From: Candidatus Poribacteria bacterium | GTDB lineage: Bacteria; Poribacteria; WGA-4E; WGA-3G | NCBI GenBank assembly: GCA_026702755.1 | Contig: JAPPBX010000080.1 | Coordinates: forward strand, 1-64,000 | Length of the DNA: 64,000 nt | Reading direction: 5' to 3' | Shown here: in pieces, positions 32,726 to 39,505 of the stretch | How positions within the stretch are numbered: position 1 is the first letter of the stretch | Layout of the letters: each line of letters starts with the position of its first letter | Notes under the pieces: model-generated | Told to the model about the DNA's origin: nothing | Database searches by the model: none | What the model saw: the letters and a program-made list of their open reading frames with translations, nothing else | Program-made: the position numbers and the translations under genes

Positions 32726-33544
32726 CTACCAATCTCGTGTATAGCCAGCGGTCCAGCCGCCATCTACCGTGAGGATGGTACCGTTAATATAGCTCGCATC
32801 TGGCGATACAAGAAACAGCACTGCTGCTGCCATTTCTGTCGTTTCTCCGGGTCGCCCCAGTGGAATGTGTGATAGTAGACTTGCGGCGTTCTCGGTGTAA
32901 GCACCGTCGTCTCCATAAAAAAGTGCCTCCGTGCCACGCGTCAGGGTTGAACCGGGCGCAACAGCATTTACCAAAATCCCTTCAGGACCCAATTCCAATG
33001 CCATTGAGCGGGTCAGGTTCGCAACGCCTGCTTTCGCCGCGACGTAAGCACTCTGCAGGCGCAGCGGTACCAATCCGGCGATAGAACTGATATTAACAAT
33101 GCGTCCAGTGGCATTCTCAGAACCAGATCTGCTATGAGATTTAAGGATATAAGGGATAACGGCACGGCTCGTCTTAAAAACGCCTGTGAGGTCTATTTCC
33201 ACGATCCGCTGCCAGTCCTCTAAGGTGTATTGATGGATCGGCACCCTATCGCTTCGGGTATTAACCCCGGCATTGTTTACGAGAATCTCGATTTTCCCGA
33301 AATGCGCCGCAATCTGAGCAGCGACATCCTCCATTTGTGCTGCGTCTGTTACGTTGCCCTCCACGAACAGACAGGTTCCACCCATCTCTTTAATCTCTTC
33401 CGTGGTTTTTATACCTGCTTGTGTGTCAATATCTACAATTGCCACGTGTGCACCGTTGTCGATCAGTGCGTCTACGGTGGCTCGCCCGATGCCATTCGCG
33501 CCCCCCGTAATAACTGCGACCTTTCCTTCAAGTGCAACCTTCAT
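32726..33544 (-). CDS. Short-chain dehydrogenase/reductase
   Basis: A 272-residue classical SDR. The NAD(P)-binding TGGANGIGRA is at about 13-22, the NNAG motif at about 90-93, and the active site S153/S154, Y167, K171 lies in NISSIAGLVP and AYVAAKAGV. D38 and D40 after the second strand suggest NAD preference. The C terminus reads YINGTILTVDGGW, as in 3-oxoacyl-ACP-reductase-like and sugar dehydrogenases. AAGGAGAATGAC precedes the ATG. It lies between the NhaC-type antiporter upstream and a cupin downstream. The substrate is unknown. Confidence 0.92.
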   Translation of the reverse strand: MKVALEGKVAVITGGANGIGRATVDALIDNGAHVAIVDIDTQAGIKTTEEIKEMGGTCLFVEGNVTDAAQMEDVAAQIAAHFGKIEILVNNAGVNTRSDRVPIHQYTLEDWQRIVEIDLTGVFKTSRAVIPYILKSHSRSGSENATGRIVNISSIAGLVPLRLQSAYVAAKAGVANLTRSMALELGPEGILVNAVAPGSTLTRGTEALFYGDDGAYTENAASLLSHIPLGRPGETTEMAAAVLFLVSPDASYINGTILTVDGGWTAGYTRDW

Positions 33545-33603
33545 GTCATTCTCCTTTTCCGTTTCAGGGTTTTTGTAGAGATGATGCTTTTCTCCGTTTC
33601 CAT

Positions 33604-35301
33604 CTACGACGCGGTTGGCGAGACATCACGCGATTCGTGAAACTTACGGAAAGCAGCGACACCATAGAACAACAAGACGATTAAGATTGTACCACCGGCG
33701 ATCCCCATCGCTGAGGAGATTCCAAGCGCGGCAGGGAGATAACCGCAGACCAAAGCGATGGTTGCAACGGTAAGACTGTAGGGGAGTTGTGTTCGGACAT
33801 GGTGCAGCGGATCGCAGCTACTGGCGATGGAGCTGAGAATCGTTGTATCTGAAAGCGGCGAGCAGTGGTCCCCGAAGATAGCACCGTCCAACACCGCACC
33901 GAGGCAAATGATTGTCGTTAATCCGTAACTCCCGTTGTCAAGCGAGAATGCCACTGGAATAGCAGTGGGTATCAGGATTGCCATTGTTCCCCAACTCGTA
34001 CCGGTAGCGAAAGAGGTCACGGACGCGCATATAAAGACGAGGAGTGGAAACCAGAGGGGTGAAACGATGTCACTAAGCATCGTCGCGAGAAATTGACCCG
34101 TCATCAGTCTATCGCAGCTCGCTTTTAAGCCCCATGCCAATAACAGAATACTCAACGGTGTGAGACTCCCTTTTACACCACTCCAAACGACTGGAAGGAT
34201 GTCTGAAAATCGCAGTTTTGAGAGCCAACGTGCACAGACAATTGCAACAATAAACCCGCTCGCGGCGGCACAAGCGAGAATCTTGACGTTGTCTGCCGCT
34301 GAAAGCGCGTTCCGCCATGCAGTGAGTGAGAAGATGGATCCTGTGCCTTTGCCATCTATCCAGAAACCACCTAACAGTAATCCGAAAAGTGTTAGAAGCG
34401 GTAAAACGGCTGAAAAAGGTTGTATAACAGCGTTTGGCAAACTGGTGAAAGACGCGGTATGTCCGAGTGCCTTCGCATCCGGTGCGGCAACATTTCCAGT
34501 TCTCCGCGCACGCGTTTCCGCTTTGTGCATCGCACCATAGTCCCTGCCACTGATTGCATTGACAATGACAAAAATAATGGTCAGGATACAGTAAAATCGG
34601 AAACCGAGTGCATCGAAGAACATCGAATATCCGTCACGTTCAAGTCCGATCGTCTTCGCGATATCTTCAAAAAGCCCCACCTCATAACCGATCCACGTGC
34701 TAACGAACGCGAGACCCGCAATCGGTGCACTCGTGGAATCCACAAGGAACGCCAATTTTTCGCGACTGACGCGATGATGATCGGTGAGTGGACGCATCGT
34801 CGGACCCACGAGCATAGCGTTGGAATAATCCCCAATAAAGATGAGAATGCCCATCAAACCCGTAATGAATTGTGCTGAACGTGGTCCCTTTGCGAACTGA
34901 GAGAGCCATACGATAACCCCACCGATGCCCCCGGATGCTACCACAACAGAGATTGTCGCCATAATGAGACACACGAATAGGACGACCCAGAAGTTAAATA
35001 GATCCACGCCATCATTGCCGATGCTTACAGCACGGGTGAACCATATTACTTCCGTCAAGAGACCACTTAGGGTAGCACCTTTTTGGGTCCACGACAGCAG
35101 GATTCCAACACCTACCGCTATGCCGAGGCTCGGCAGCAATCGGGTTGTCACGATTGCTAATGTGACAGCGAGTAGCGGTGGAAGGACGCTGTACCATACA
35201 AGGGTTTCGGCATCACTCACCTGCTCTGCACGCCACTTAAAAATGAGGCTAAGCCCCAAAAAGATTAAAAAGCCGATAACAAATTTCAGTTTAGAATTCA
35301 T
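33604..35301 (-). CDS. NhaC-family Na+/H+ antiporter-like membrane protein
   Basis: A 565-residue integral membrane protein with about 12-14 hydrophobic helices. Diagnostic stretches are GILIFIGDYSNAMLVGPTMRPL, SFATGTSWGTMAILIPTAIPVAF and LGAVLDGAIFGDHCSPLSDTTILSS, all typical of the NhaC superfamily. Members exchange Na+ for H+ or carry arginine, malate or lactate. I chose the ATG at 35301 because AAGGA sits 5 bases upstream; the ATG at 35316 has GAGGA only two bases away. It is followed after 59 bp by the SDR gene. Confidence 0.9.
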   Translation of the reverse strand: MNSKLKFVIGFLIFLGLSLIFKWRAEQVSDAETLVWYSVLPPLLAVTLAIVTTRLLPSLGIAVGVGILLSWTQKGATLSGLLTEVIWFTRAVSIGNDGVDLFNFWVVLFVCLIMATISVVVASGGIGGVIVWLSQFAKGPRSAQFITGLMGILIFIGDYSNAMLVGPTMRPLTDHHRVSREKLAFLVDSTSAPIAGLAFVSTWIGYEVGLFEDIAKTIGLERDGYSMFFDALGFRFYCILTIIFVIVNAISGRDYGAMHKAETRARRTGNVAAPDAKALGHTASFTSLPNAVIQPFSAVLPLLTLFGLLLGGFWIDGKGTGSIFSLTAWRNALSAADNVKILACAAASGFIVAIVCARWLSKLRFSDILPVVWSGVKGSLTPLSILLLAWGLKASCDRLMTGQFLATMLSDIVSPLWFPLLVFICASVTSFATGTSWGTMAILIPTAIPVAFSLDNGSYGLTTIICLGAVLDGAIFGDHCSPLSDTTILSSIASSCDPLHHVRTQLPYSLTVATIALVCGYLPAALGISSAMGIAGGTILIVLLFYGVAAFRKFHESRDVSPTAS

Positions 35302-35371
35302 CAGCGTCCTTGGCATGTTCCTCTTTAGATTTGTGGGATTTATCTGTTCTCGCTTGTGTGTATCATAGCAG

Positions 35372-35404
35372 TTTTTGGTGTCGCTTGCAAGCCTAAACTT
35401 ACCT
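35372..35404 (-). repeat. Diverged copy of the AGCAAGTTTTGGC palindromic repeat
   Basis: The minus strand reads AGGTAAGTTTAGGCTTGCAA and on to GCGACACCAAAAA. It keeps the 10-bp self-complementary core GCTTGCAAGC of the element at 38503, 44314 and 49420. It lies in the 307-bp spacer between the divergent nhaC-like and sigma-like genes, which otherwise holds only AT-rich sequence with weak promoter-like boxes. Confidence 0.55.
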
Positions 35405-35608
35405 ATGGAGGTATAAATATTTTGTCAAAAGTTACTGACGAAAACCTTTTGAAAGTCTTCGTTGTATCAAGACATACTATGAAAATATATACAAAAAAAA
35501 TACATACAAAAGACCTATTATGTCGGAATTCGCCCCAAATTTTCGTGATCTATATATGAAGGCAATCACACGATCATTTCGGAAAAGATGAGGTGAGCAC
35601 TTGAATAG

Positions 35609-36394
35609 GTGAACAATGTTTGTTTAAATCGATGGTTCGTGGAAACCGATGACAAAGAAGAGGCATGTAGACTTATCTTCAATGCGTATTACAAGGCTGT
35701 CTTCGACGCAGTTATCAGAATGCGGCGGAATCATCCAGATACCGTCGTCGATCCCGATGAAATCACCAGCGATACCTTCATCAAAGCCTTCGAGAAGCGG
35801 AAAGAAATCCAAGAACCGGAGAAGTTGGTAGAGTGGTTGGTAACCGTCGCGGAAAATCTGATGATTGACGAGATAAGAAAATCACGCCAAAAGCGACGCT
35901 TGTCAGCTATATTGGTTGGGACCGTTTTTGATGTTGAAAAAGAGGAACCCTTCGCATCAACGCTCGTGGAAACTGATACCGAGCAATCCGAAGCAGACCA
36001 GTATCTGGTCGCACAACTCCTCCGTCTCCTTCAAGATACGGACAGGGAAATCGCAGAACTTAAGGGTGCTGAGCTTTCTGCCAAAGAGATAGCGGAACTG
36101 ATAGGTTCTACTACACCCGGAGCAGTTCAGAAGAAATGGGAACGACTCCGCAAGTGGTTGGAACCCATCGCCCGCAATTTAGATGCTTTGATCAACTGCC
36201 TCCCCAAGGAGAAAGACAAGTGGATTATGGAACGGTACTTGGATGGACAACCGCTATCGGTGATTACGGAAGCACTTGGTGTCTCTCCCGCCACCGTTGA
36301 GCAAACAGTGAGACGTGTGAGAGCACAGTGGAAGAAAGCTGCGACGGACAATCCCACGGATCCTGTTTCCGCAATGGTTAAGAAGGAGAGATAA
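35609..36394 (+). CDS. Sigma-70-like factor with two C-terminal HTH units
   Basis: A 261-residue regulator. Residues 20-95 match sigma region 2 (LIFNAYYKAVFDAVI, DPDEITSDTFIKAF, LVEWLVTVAENLMIDEIRKS), the part that binds core polymerase and the -10 element. After a linker there are two region-4-like helix-turn-helix units: about 140-180 (LSAKEIAELIGSTTPGAVQKKW) and about 205-245 (PLSVITEALGVSPATVEQTV). A doubled region 4 is unusual for an ECF factor. GTG start at 35609 without a clear ribosome site; GTG at 35639 is an alternative. Two small His-rich envelope proteins follow, likely targets or partners. No anti-sigma gene is obvious. Confidence 0.8.
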   Translation: MNNVCLNRWFVETDDKEEACRLIFNAYYKAVFDAVIRMRRNHPDTVVDPDEITSDTFIKAFEKRKEIQEPEKLVEWLVTVAENLMIDEIRKSRQKRRLSAILVGTVFDVEKEEPFASTLVETDTEQSEADQYLVAQLLRLLQDTDREIAELKGAELSAKEIAELIGSTTPGAVQKKWERLRKWLEPIARNLDALINCLPKEKDKWIMERYLDGQPLSVITEALGVSPATVEQTVRRVRAQWKKAATDNPTDPVSAMVKKER

Positions 36395-36415
36395 TTATTA
36401 ATTTTTCGTTTTGTA

Positions 36416-36444
36416 TTGACTTTTTTGGACGATTTTCATATAAT
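36416..36444 (+). promoter_or_regulatory. Consensus promoter for the small His/Tyr-rich secreted protein
   Basis: TTGACT (36416-36421), 17 bp, TATAAT (36439-36444), 17 bp before the ATG and only 22 bp after the sigma gene stop. It gives a very short leader and makes expression independent of the upstream gene. Confidence 0.7.
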
Positions 36445-36460
36445 CAAAGGAGAAAAAACA

Positions 36461-36826
36461 ATGAAAATGTCTTTACGTCAGATGATTGTAGTTGTAGTGG
36501 TTCTCACCTTGTCAGGTATTTCTCTAACCACAGCACCTGAGGCTACATGGGACCGTGCGTCATCACACCTCGTGACCGTTGATGTTTACAGTGTAAGCGG
36601 TGCATATTGTTACACCTACGGTTACAGTTATTATGTGCCGGATACAACCACACAACACTACAAGTATTACCACAGGGGACCTACTGTGCCAAATACGCAT
36701 CCATATCCACACACGGCGACCCTCACAGGTACACATCAGCATGAAACCGAAGAAGATTTGGACACCTTGTGTGATGGAAGGGATCCTTTCGACAGTTCCG
36801 GCACTATGTACGCTTCGGATTCCTAA
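36461..36826 (+). CDS. Small secreted His/Tyr-rich protein
   Basis: A 121-residue protein with a signal sequence (1-29; QMIVVVVVLTLSGISLTTA). The mature part is rich in Tyr, His, Thr and Pro: YCYTYGYSYYVP, HYKYYHRGP, THPYPHTATLTGTHQHETEE, then an acidic, Cys-containing tail. It has no repeats of known type and no enzyme motif. AAAGGAG precedes the ATG at 36461. The THQHE segment recurs in the next gene product, and both follow a sigma-like gene, so they may form a metal-binding or stress-induced envelope pair. I do not recognise the family. Confidence 0.7.
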   Translation: MKMSLRQMIVVVVVLTLSGISLTTAPEATWDRASSHLVTVDVYSVSGAYCYTYGYSYYVPDTTTQHYKYYHRGPTVPNTHPYPHTATLTGTHQHETEEDLDTLCDGRDPFDSSGTMYASDS

Positions 36827-36892
36827 TCCTGTTGAAACTTAGGGAAGTCATCTATGACTTCCCATCTTCCTAAAAGGTAGAAAGGATTTCTC

Positions 36893-37552
36893 ATGCGACT
36901 CTTTATTATTCCTGTTCTCATTGTTTGTGTCATCTCAATCGCGTTATTTTTTTTTCTGGAACATGACACAAAGAAATTTATCAAAAACCTTTCCCCATCC
37001 CCGGTGCCTACGATAGATAAGGGAAGCGAACATGCAACCGAGACGGCGGATACCCCCTCAATAGATGACACATCTTTGGTTGATACTCAAGAAACCCAAA
37101 GAGTCGTTGAAGCAGAGGAAGTACACCCACATCACCCTCAGGCAGATGGCACCCATCAACACGAGCACACACACTCCCATGAAGATGATACTGAAATTTC
37201 AGAACCGAATCGAATCCCACTCGCCTCGGCAAAATCTAACACGAAGGAGGATGTGAAGGCAAAGCCGCCAAAACCCTTTGAAACTCTCAAAAAGAAGTTG
37301 ATTGAAGAGCACGGTGATATTCCGTTAGTCCATACATACATTGGTTTGAAACAGAAGTTTCTGAATCAAGAACAAATGACAATAGATGAGGTCAGCACTT
37401 ATTGGGAAGCAACAATGGTTTTCAATCCGACCTCTCGGAATCGAAAAACCTATGAGCTAATAAAAAGGCTCTCATCGCAAGCAGATCCTGGCACTTTTGA
37501 AATCATTTATGATCCGAAAAAATTAGAAGAAAAAAAGAGATCGGCTCAATGA
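36893..37552 (+). CDS. Membrane-anchored His-rich protein
   Basis: A 219-residue protein with one N-terminal transmembrane anchor (FIIPVLIVCVISIALFFFL). A disordered acidic/Thr-rich segment (about 28-80) comes next. A histidine cluster at about 88-107 (HPHHPQADGTHQHEHTHSHE) follows, a pattern typical of Zn/Ni/Cu-binding loops. The C-terminal 90 residues are charged and likely helical (KPFETLKKKLIEEHGDIP, IGLKQKFLNQEQMT, TYWEATMVFNP). AAGGTAGAAAGG precedes the ATG. It shares THQHE with the preceding gene. Function unknown; metal binding is inferred from composition only. Confidence 0.7.
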   Translation: MRLFIIPVLIVCVISIALFFFLEHDTKKFIKNLSPSPVPTIDKGSEHATETADTPSIDDTSLVDTQETQRVVEAEEVHPHHPQADGTHQHEHTHSHEDDTEISEPNRIPLASAKSNTKEDVKAKPPKPFETLKKKLIEEHGDIPLVHTYIGLKQKFLNQEQMTIDEVSTYWEATMVFNPTSRNRKTYELIKRLSSQADPGTFEIIYDPKKLEEKKRSAQ

Positions 37553-38040
37553 AAAAGATGCCTTTTTATAGGAACTCATAGCGAGTAAGAGCTAAGAATT
37601 CAAAGTCCATGGAGATCTGAGGCGGAAAGAAAAGGACACAAATTATTTCCCTTTCTTTCCCTATCAGACTACATCATTATGCTTTACTCAATATAACTTC
37701 TAGGACTGTGCCCTCCTCAAGGAATTCGTTTCATAGCAAAAGCCAGAGCATGCGATCCACGGCCATAGTAACGGATTTCGCCCTCACATCACCCGAAAAT
37801 CGGGCGGAATATTCTCTTTATACACGCACAAAACATCCTGCCTATCAAGTACCTCAAATACATCTGAATGCTTGTGGAATCGGTACTGTCCTGTTCATCT
37901 TTTCCTTCTACACTCGTGCCTAACCGATCACAGTACCGATCCCTAATGCATCCGTCACCATAGGAGAATGGATCGCGTAGCGTCCGATTGGAAGCAAATA
38001 TCCTACTGAATTAGAACAGTTAAGAGCGTTTTAGAAATCC
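37553..38040. other. Gene-free spacer of about 490 bp
   Basis: I see no coding signal, tRNA or strong hairpin here. Short open frames are interrupted and have no ribosome sites. Together with the PulC-like relic that follows, this may be the decayed 5' part of an older gene, but I could not recover recognisable protein similarity in any frame. Confidence 0.4.
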
Positions 38041-38331
38041 GACTTCTACCGAACCGTCATAGACAACGACCTCTTCCGTCCCGTGGGGTGGACACCCCCA
38101 CGTCTACAAGAACCCTACCGCTTGCTTGGAACCATCATCCCTACAGACACAAAGATTCCCTCAAGAGCCATCATCCAAAACACCGTAGGAAATCAGACGC
38201 ACATTGTCACTATCGGTGATACTCTTGAGACAGACACGACCGTTACAAATATCCAACCCAAGCGTGTCATCGTTGAGAAAGCAGGACAGCAGAGAACCCT
38301 CACCTTAAACGCAACGCCGCTGATAAAATAA
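38041..38331 (+). pseudogene. Relic of a PulC/GspC-like (type II secretion protein C) domain
   Basis: The frame opens just after a TAG at 38032-38034 and runs to a TAA at 38329-38331. It encodes DFYRTVIDNDLFRPVGW, then YRLLGTIIPTD..., then IGDTLETDTTVTNIQPKRVIVE. This is the pattern of the PulC homology region (NLFRPLGW; LLGTI; GD.I....V..I....VVL). No start codon with a ribosome site precedes it; a GTG at 38083 lies inside the conserved region. It is best read as a 5'-truncated remnant. Confidence 0.55.
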
Positions 38332-38449: not shown

Positions 38450-38479
38450 TTGACAATCGCACTGTATGTCAACTATAAT
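38450..38479 (+). promoter_or_regulatory. Near-perfect sigma70 promoter for the ribokinase operon
   Basis: TTGACA (38450-38455), 18 bp, TATAAT (38474-38479). The palindromic repeat at 38503-38533 lies between it and the gene start, in what would be the 5' untranslated region. Confidence 0.75.
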
Positions 38480-38557: not shown

Positions 38558-39505
38558 GTGATGAACCATACAACACCGAAAGTTACCGTTGTTGGCAGTT
38601 TGAATGTTGATCTGGTGTGTCACGCGACACACCGACCGAACAAAGGAGAAACGCTCATCGGTGATGCTTTTGATATTTTCACGGGTGGGAAAGGATTTAA
38701 TCAAGCAACTGCTGCCGCACGATTGGGTGCTGAAGTCACGCTTATCGGAAGTGTTGGCGCGGATCTTTTTGGAGATATGCTGCTCACAGCGACAGCAAAT
38801 GAACATATTGACAGCAGGTTTGTCACAAAACGTACGAACGTTGGTACAGGTGTTGCAACTATCGTGATTGAACCGGATGGCGACAATAGCATTATCGTCG
38901 TGCCGCGCGCAAATATGGCACTCACAACAGCGGATATAGATGCCGCTGCCGATTGGATCGCGGACGCGGATGTACTCCTTTTGCAATTAGAAACACCGAT
39001 TGCAGCGTCCGAACATGCTGCAGCAATTGCCAAGAGACACGACACACGGGTAATATTAAATCCCGCACCGGCGCAACCACTACCGGATAGTCTTTTGAGA
39101 TACGTTGATATTCTCACACCAAACCAATCCGAGACGGAGTTACTATCGCGGTTGAAGGTGAGTAATCACGAAGAGGCGTGCCGCGCAGCAGAGGTGCTAC
39201 GCGCTCGGATGGTGGATACCGTAGATGCTGCTGTCGTGCTAACGCTTGGAGAACAGGGTGCATTGATGTTGACAGCCACATCATCTGAACATATCTCCGC
39301 GCTGCCTGTTGAACCTGTAGATACTACAGGCGCAGGCGATGCTTTTTGTGGCGCACTCGCAACCGCCTTGGCGAGCGGTGAAACCTTACATTCAGCAGTT
39401 GCGTTTGCAAATGCCGCTGGCGCGGCAGCGGTCACTGTTACGGGTGCAACACCTTCCATGCCGACACGCGCGAAAATTGAATGTCTATTAGAATCTGAAA
39501 AATAA
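38558..39505 (+). CDS. rbsK: Ribokinase / PfkB-family sugar kinase
   Basis: A 315-residue cytosolic kinase that phosphorylates a sugar or nucleoside 5' hydroxyl with ATP. The PfkB signatures are present: GSLNVDLV, GGKGFNQA at 43-50, and DTTGAGDAFCGALATAL around 250-266, whose Asp is the catalytic base. GGKG.NQA and the NPAP motif (LNPAPAQPL) favour ribokinase over fructokinase. AGGA lies 7 bases before a GTG at 38558; ATG at 38561 is equally plausible. No ribose transporter is nearby. The TPR gene follows on the same strand. Confidence 0.85.
   Translation: MMNHTTPKVTVVGSLNVDLVCHATHRPNKGETLIGDAFDIFTGGKGFNQATAAARLGAEVTLIGSVGADLFGDMLLTATANEHIDSRFVTKRTNVGTGVATIVIEPDGDNSIIVVPRANMALTTADIDAAADWIADADVLLLQLETPIAASEHAAAIAKRHDTRVILNPAPAQPLPDSLLRYVDILTPNQSETELLSRLKVSNHEEACRAAEVLRARMVDTVDAAVVLTLGEQGALMLTATSSEHISALPVEPVDTTGAGDAFCGALATALASGETLHSAVAFANAAGAAAVTVTGATPSMPTRAKIECLLESEK

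Follow-up and report, generated by a model that had tools for sequence, protein, structure and literature searches.

ECF sigma factors of the SigW/RpoE type (5wuq and 1or7) stop after a single region 4, and a membrane anti-sigma factor holds them. ECF groups with a C-terminal extension include ECF41 (SnoaL), ECF42 (TPR) and ECF238/CorE (Cys-rich), and metal-responsive CorE-like members pair their Cys-rich extension with a CXC linker motif (PMC8999054). Here we describe an ECF-like sigma gene with a duplicated region 4 on contig JAPPBX010000080.1 (C80) of a 5.8-Mb Candidatus Poribacteria genome (G000); the window is the 64,000-nucleotide stretch of this contig that was analysed. Like ECF41, ECF42 and ECF238/CorE, the protein joins region 2 to region 4, lacks a recognisable anti-sigma factor and bears a C-terminal extension that may regulate its activity, but this extension is a second region 4 and not a SnoaL, TPR, WD40 or Cys-rich domain; its sequence holds neither the Cys-rich extension nor the CXC motif of the CorE-like factors. 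A literature search (the main ECF reclassification excepted) returned no paper describing a second region 4 as an ECF extension, and none joining Poribacteria with an ECF sigma factor or with an oligosaccharyltransferase; the Poribacteria single-cell genome paper makes no mention of sigma factors.

A sigma factor with two region 4 units

The sigma gene (35609–36394, forward strand) opens with GTG and encodes 261 residues. A first-pass annotation of the sequence had read the product as region 2 followed by two helix-turn-helix units, and profile searches place all three: region 2 (residues ~18–95, 35660–35893; Sigma70_r2 at 24–93), a first region 4 (residues ~140–185, 36026–36163) covered by a Sigma70_ECF match that extends to residue 185, and a second (residues 189–239, 36173–36325) matched by Sigma70_r4_2 at 36.7 bits. 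PF07638, PF04542, PF08281 and TIGR02937 are all above their cut-offs, with no Pfam or NCBIfam match to region 3. The protein thus has the region 2 plus region 4 layout of ECF factors, save that these have a single region 4, whereas here the second is kept across the family.

An AlphaFold model built from 20 orthologues (mean pLDDT 81), the check proposed with the annotation, displays two helical sigma4-like units (helices 143–196 and 201–247, pLDDT mostly 86–95), with a linker of low confidence between them and region 2. Residues ~11–185 align to SigW (E 5.1e-17). A profile of the C-terminal half matches region 4 and LuxR-type domains unit by unit; none of the matches listed is a solved chain covering both units. 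The second region 4 could serve as a second DNA contact or as a regulatory extension; the protein poses a question of promoter recognition—two DNA contacts versus self-regulation by a duplicated domain.

The closest Foldseek match is the RpoE of an RNA-guided transcription complex (9n9q, E 2.4e-4), itself 261 residues long and matched by profile over residues 10–233, which raises the idea that the sigma factor works with a nuclease-dead Cas12f/TnpB-like protein. We regard this as extremely improbable and set it aside. At a TM-score of just 0.28 the match is local, and 9n9q is not among the matches listed for the C-terminal profile. The genome has 21 Zn-ribbon matches of the TnpB/Cas12f-like kind, none of them on C80, and the four loci scanned with Rfam gave no match and hence no guide-like RNA.

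A narrow family with a conserved upstream site

Poribacteria live mainly in marine sponges. At E ≤ 1e-30, the sigma family is represented in 31 of the 59 genomes from the GTDB family to which the window belongs; the 26 other Poribacteria genomes have no copy at this threshold, and all 27 relatives found among GTDB contigs come from Poribacteria assemblies. Both region 4 units are kept in 20 to 27 orthologues. Against its closest relative, in the sister genome G055 (80% protein identity), the gene shows purifying selection (omega 0.36), with the second region 4 alone (0.31) as constrained as the rest. Judged by sequence, this is a genuine, narrow, Poribacteria-specific family. About nine copies are broken, by a split, a truncation or a stop; the relatives are mostly metagenome-assembled genomes, and assembly errors may account for some of the split genes.

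Sigma-like domains also occur in other contexts. The genome of the window holds more than 60 paralogous sigma domains at about 60 places, mostly within open frames of 400–1100 residues (for example, G000:C17:143970-144401). In relatives elsewhere, long C-terminal parts are joined to ECF regions 2 and 4; a sigma-like N-terminus precedes WD40 repeats in L219 and BNR/PQQ-like repeats in L214.

A promoter-like site, TGTCGGAATTCGCCCCAAATTTTCGTGA (35521–35548, forward strand), lies 60 bp 5′ of the sigma start, and its motif, TGTCGGAAT-N14-YGTSA, stands upstream of nearly all sigma copies. Across 59 genomes the exact motif precedes the sigma gene at ~34 loci, with only occasional hits for a reversed control pattern. 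The genome of the window has exactly one exact copy, this one, with none ahead of the cargo, and 100 shuffles of the window yielded none. We take the GGAAT/CGTSA layout to resemble that of ECF promoters in general, and on this likeness autoregulation is proposed; recurrence at the sigma loci and the single genomic copy make it likely that the factor transcribes its own gene from this predicted promoter. Extending the motif to a regulon failed: with up to two mismatches, the genome has 177 sites versus 73 for reversed controls, too noisy for prediction. The motif as a signal before other cassettes was also set aside: in G008 and G006, the additional exact copies mostly adjoin non-cassette genes (L201–L204).

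Cargo is exchanged behind a fixed sigma gene

Comparison with G055 reveals a sharp boundary. The two sequences are 86–92% identical over 33001–36399, save for a small gap 5′ of the sigma gene, until homology ends five bases past the sigma stop. For 1.6 kb (36400–38028) there is no alignable DNA between flanks that are 84–92% identical, and homology resumes at 38029, at the GspC-like remnant, with 84–89% identity. The slot in G055 is occupied by genes for a secreted protein of unrelated sequence, a CxCC protein and STT3, and then by a GspC-like gene. On either side lie a Na+/H+ antiporter family gene (33604–35316, reverse strand; PF03553), conserved beside several sigma loci, and a conserved PfkB-family (ribokinase-like) carbohydrate kinase gene (38558–39505, forward strand; PF00294). 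Thus, the cargo has been swapped while the sigma gene stays at a fixed chromosomal station.

The window slot contains only the first two cargo genes and a dead GspC-like remnant, all on the forward strand, and is a shortened version of the cassette. S2 (36461–36826) encodes a small Tyr/His-rich secreted protein of 121 residues with TGTHQHE at 36725–36745; S3 (36893–37552) encodes a single-span membrane-anchored protein of 219 residues with a His-rich segment (37124–37183), a conserved C-terminal domain (~37268–37510) and almost nothing on the cytoplasmic side of the span. Both had been described from the letters, the latter by its stretch DGTHQHEHTHSHE, and both descriptions hold. Neither belongs to a known family. 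S3 is under purifying selection (omega 0.33) and has a 50% identical homologue in G022; S2 has a decayed copy there (42% identity) and a weak match in G016, and an L096 protein has a similar N-terminus. The G022 pair, the closest relative of S2 and S3, sits beside unrelated genes and away from any sigma gene of this family. The remnant (37990–38331) is a GspC-like pseudogene with a lost or degenerate N-terminal part and an in-frame TAG (38032–38034); it shares 74% identity with the L094 protein and other GspC-like proteins (tblastn), and an intact homologue matches Pfam T2SSC.

Evidence against a metal-sensing cassette

The first-pass annotation had proposed a metal-sensing or envelope-stress cassette, in which the two His-rich envelope proteins convey a metal signal to the sigma factor and are in turn under its control. 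Parts of its description stand: an ECF-like sigma gene does adjoin envelope genes, HxHxH stretches occur in S3 of the window and its homologue in G022, as well as in the linkers of a few other S3 proteins, and no anti-sigma family was found by Pfam or NCBIfam among the neighbouring proteins, so that the adjacent anti-sigma gene of canonical ECF loci is missing as stated. A sigma gene without the His-rich genes in related genomes had been named beforehand as the refuting case, and here the proposal fails. Many genomes carry the sigma gene away from His-rich neighbours, including G055 with its unrelated cargo, and in G022 homologues of both His-rich genes persist where the sigma gene is absent.

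The hexamer GTHQHE common to the pair is real (it arises in 13 of 20,000 shuffles of the pair), but the wider form THxHE is absent from 546 open reading frames of related loci, which rules out THQHE as a conserved motif. Histidine content is mildly raised over a 2.5% background in S2 (7 of 121; binomial P 0.035) and S3 (12 of 219; P 0.011). No metal-protein family in Pfam or NCBIfam is above its cut-off: the only metal-related Pfam match is to Zip, on the His-rich stretch of S3 (20 bits against 35.1), which is probably compositional and does not identify a Zip transporter. With the cargo different in G055, the pair alone in G022 and the motif unconserved, we reject the metal-sensing cassette as very improbable.

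A separate promoter ahead of the cargo

Between the sigma and S2 genes lies a sigma70-type promoter, TTGACT-17-TATAAT (36416–36444, forward strand). It had been called perfect; the site is where it was placed, directly after the sigma gene, but agrees with consensus at 11 of 12 positions. A scan of 3.3 kb gave seven promoter-like sites, of which this is one of the two best; shuffles gave 5.2 ± 2.4, and such sites are therefore common here. Several relatives have comparable TTGACA/TATAAT-like sites upstream of their cargo. We assign 36416–36444 as a predicted housekeeping-type promoter, separate from the upstream ECF-type site. A consensus-perfect sigma70 promoter, TTGACA-18-TATAAT, is found at 38450–38479, 5′ of the PfkB-family gene.

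The sigma–S2 gap has features of its own elsewhere. Ten loci (L094, L095, L099, L100, L102, L108, L115, L117, L119 and L124) have a conserved three-hairpin element between the sigma stop and S2, with 30 pairs, four of them changed on both sides (alignment A3). It is missing from the 66-bp gap of the window, and Rfam gave no match in the loci scanned. Loci of the other genus (L118, L120–L122 and L128) have a different long hairpin in this gap.

The sigma gene heads an STT3 cassette at many loci

Elsewhere the cargo is fuller: a small secreted, often Cys-containing protein (S2), a single-span protein (S3), a small CxCC membrane protein, an STT3-type oligosaccharyltransferase (or else a PMT-type glycosyltransferase) and a protein resembling GspC. 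The usual order at sigma loci is S2, S3, CxCC, STT3, then GspC-like or CDP-alcohol phosphotransferase. Among 35 other sigma loci, an STT3 gene lies downstream of the sigma gene at 16 (at 15 of the 28 for which 5 kb or more of sequence is available) and a PMT-like gene at two; about half of the sigma loci, including the window with no STT3 in its slot, are without one. One S2 subtype, with the common leader MTNTLTW..KPI..LPK and a Cys/Gly-rich C-terminus, pairs with one S3 subtype.

The cassette STT3 matches both archaeal-type models, PF02516 (1.1e-14) and TIGR04154, but is far under the cut-off of the latter (61.6 of 450 bits), and differs from the archaeal type in being bacterial, present in many copies per genome and absent from the window itself. 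Likewise, the C-terminal part of the GspC-like protein exceeds the Pfam cut-off for type II secretion GspC (PF11356, 2.3e-7; 31.2 bits against 27), yet the protein is far under the NCBIfam GspC cut-offs and its gene sits in a small-protein/STT3 cassette, as a pseudogene in the window. N-glycosylation sequons show no excess in S2 proteins (21 versus 21.2 in shuffles), which leaves STT3 action on S2 unsupported.

Our preferred reading, which we put at about an even chance, is that an autoregulated ECF-like sigma factor with a double region 4 heads an exchangeable envelope or secreted-protein module, possibly for glycoprotein export. The factor would drive its own transcription from a dedicated promoter upstream, with 35521–35548 the candidate site, at a fixed station ahead of an exchangeable cargo slot, and may raise cargo expression by read-through. 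The module would probably make, modify and export a variable surface or secreted protein; that this product is a glycoprotein is suggested by the STT3, PMT and GspC-like genes of the cassette.

Control of the cargo by the sigma factor is plausible on present sequence data, although two observations suggest that the cargo may escape such control: it is preceded by a sigma70-like promoter of its own, and it stays open where the sigma gene is split or truncated (L119, L128, L205 and L289). The same observations fit a selfish or purely self-regulating station resident beside which unrelated, housekeeping-driven cargo merely inserts, as do the single, sigma-only exact motif in the genome and similar cassettes elsewhere that lack a sigma gene of this family. 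Such a resident does not explain why STT3 cassettes lie behind the sigma gene far more often than chance placement would allow, nor why the cassette, where present, begins directly behind it on the same strand; purifying selection on the sigma gene also speaks against it, and sigma54-activator genes in other such cassettes suggest regulated units. On balance we consider it rather unlikely.

Returning to the module headed by an autoregulated sigma factor, 40 further STT3 loci indicate how far its plan extends. The order small Cys protein, S3, CxCC, STT3 and CDP/GspC recurs at many, whole or in part, and a sigma54-activator gene lies near 11 of the 40, so that cassettes of this kind are associated with two or more types of regulator, the sigma factor being one. 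A more ambitious reading, which we hold to be doubtful, is a polymorphic system of sponge symbionts: a self-activating factor with two sigma4 units, or a sigma54 activator, would head exchangeable modules whose variable small secreted protein is modified and exported by its own STT3 and GspC-like adaptor. If so, the modules would be strain-specific surface or secreted glycoproteins directed towards host, phage or rivals. The slot and the abundance of STT3 genes in single genomes suggest that dominant sponge symbionts hold a large, uncharacterised repertoire of secreted-protein modules, and native promoter and cargo sequences are available for surrogate-host testing.

STT3 genes range from about 0 to 21 per genome, and G025, G032 and G004, with at least 20 matches each, have unusually many oligosaccharyltransferase genes for bacteria. 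The genome of the window has a paralogous cassette of its own at G000:C68:14930-18610 (L158:6930-10611), comprising a small secreted Cys protein, an S3 protein 36% identical to an S3 reference, a PMT-type mannosyltransferase (PF13231) and an apparent family-2 glycosyltransferase.
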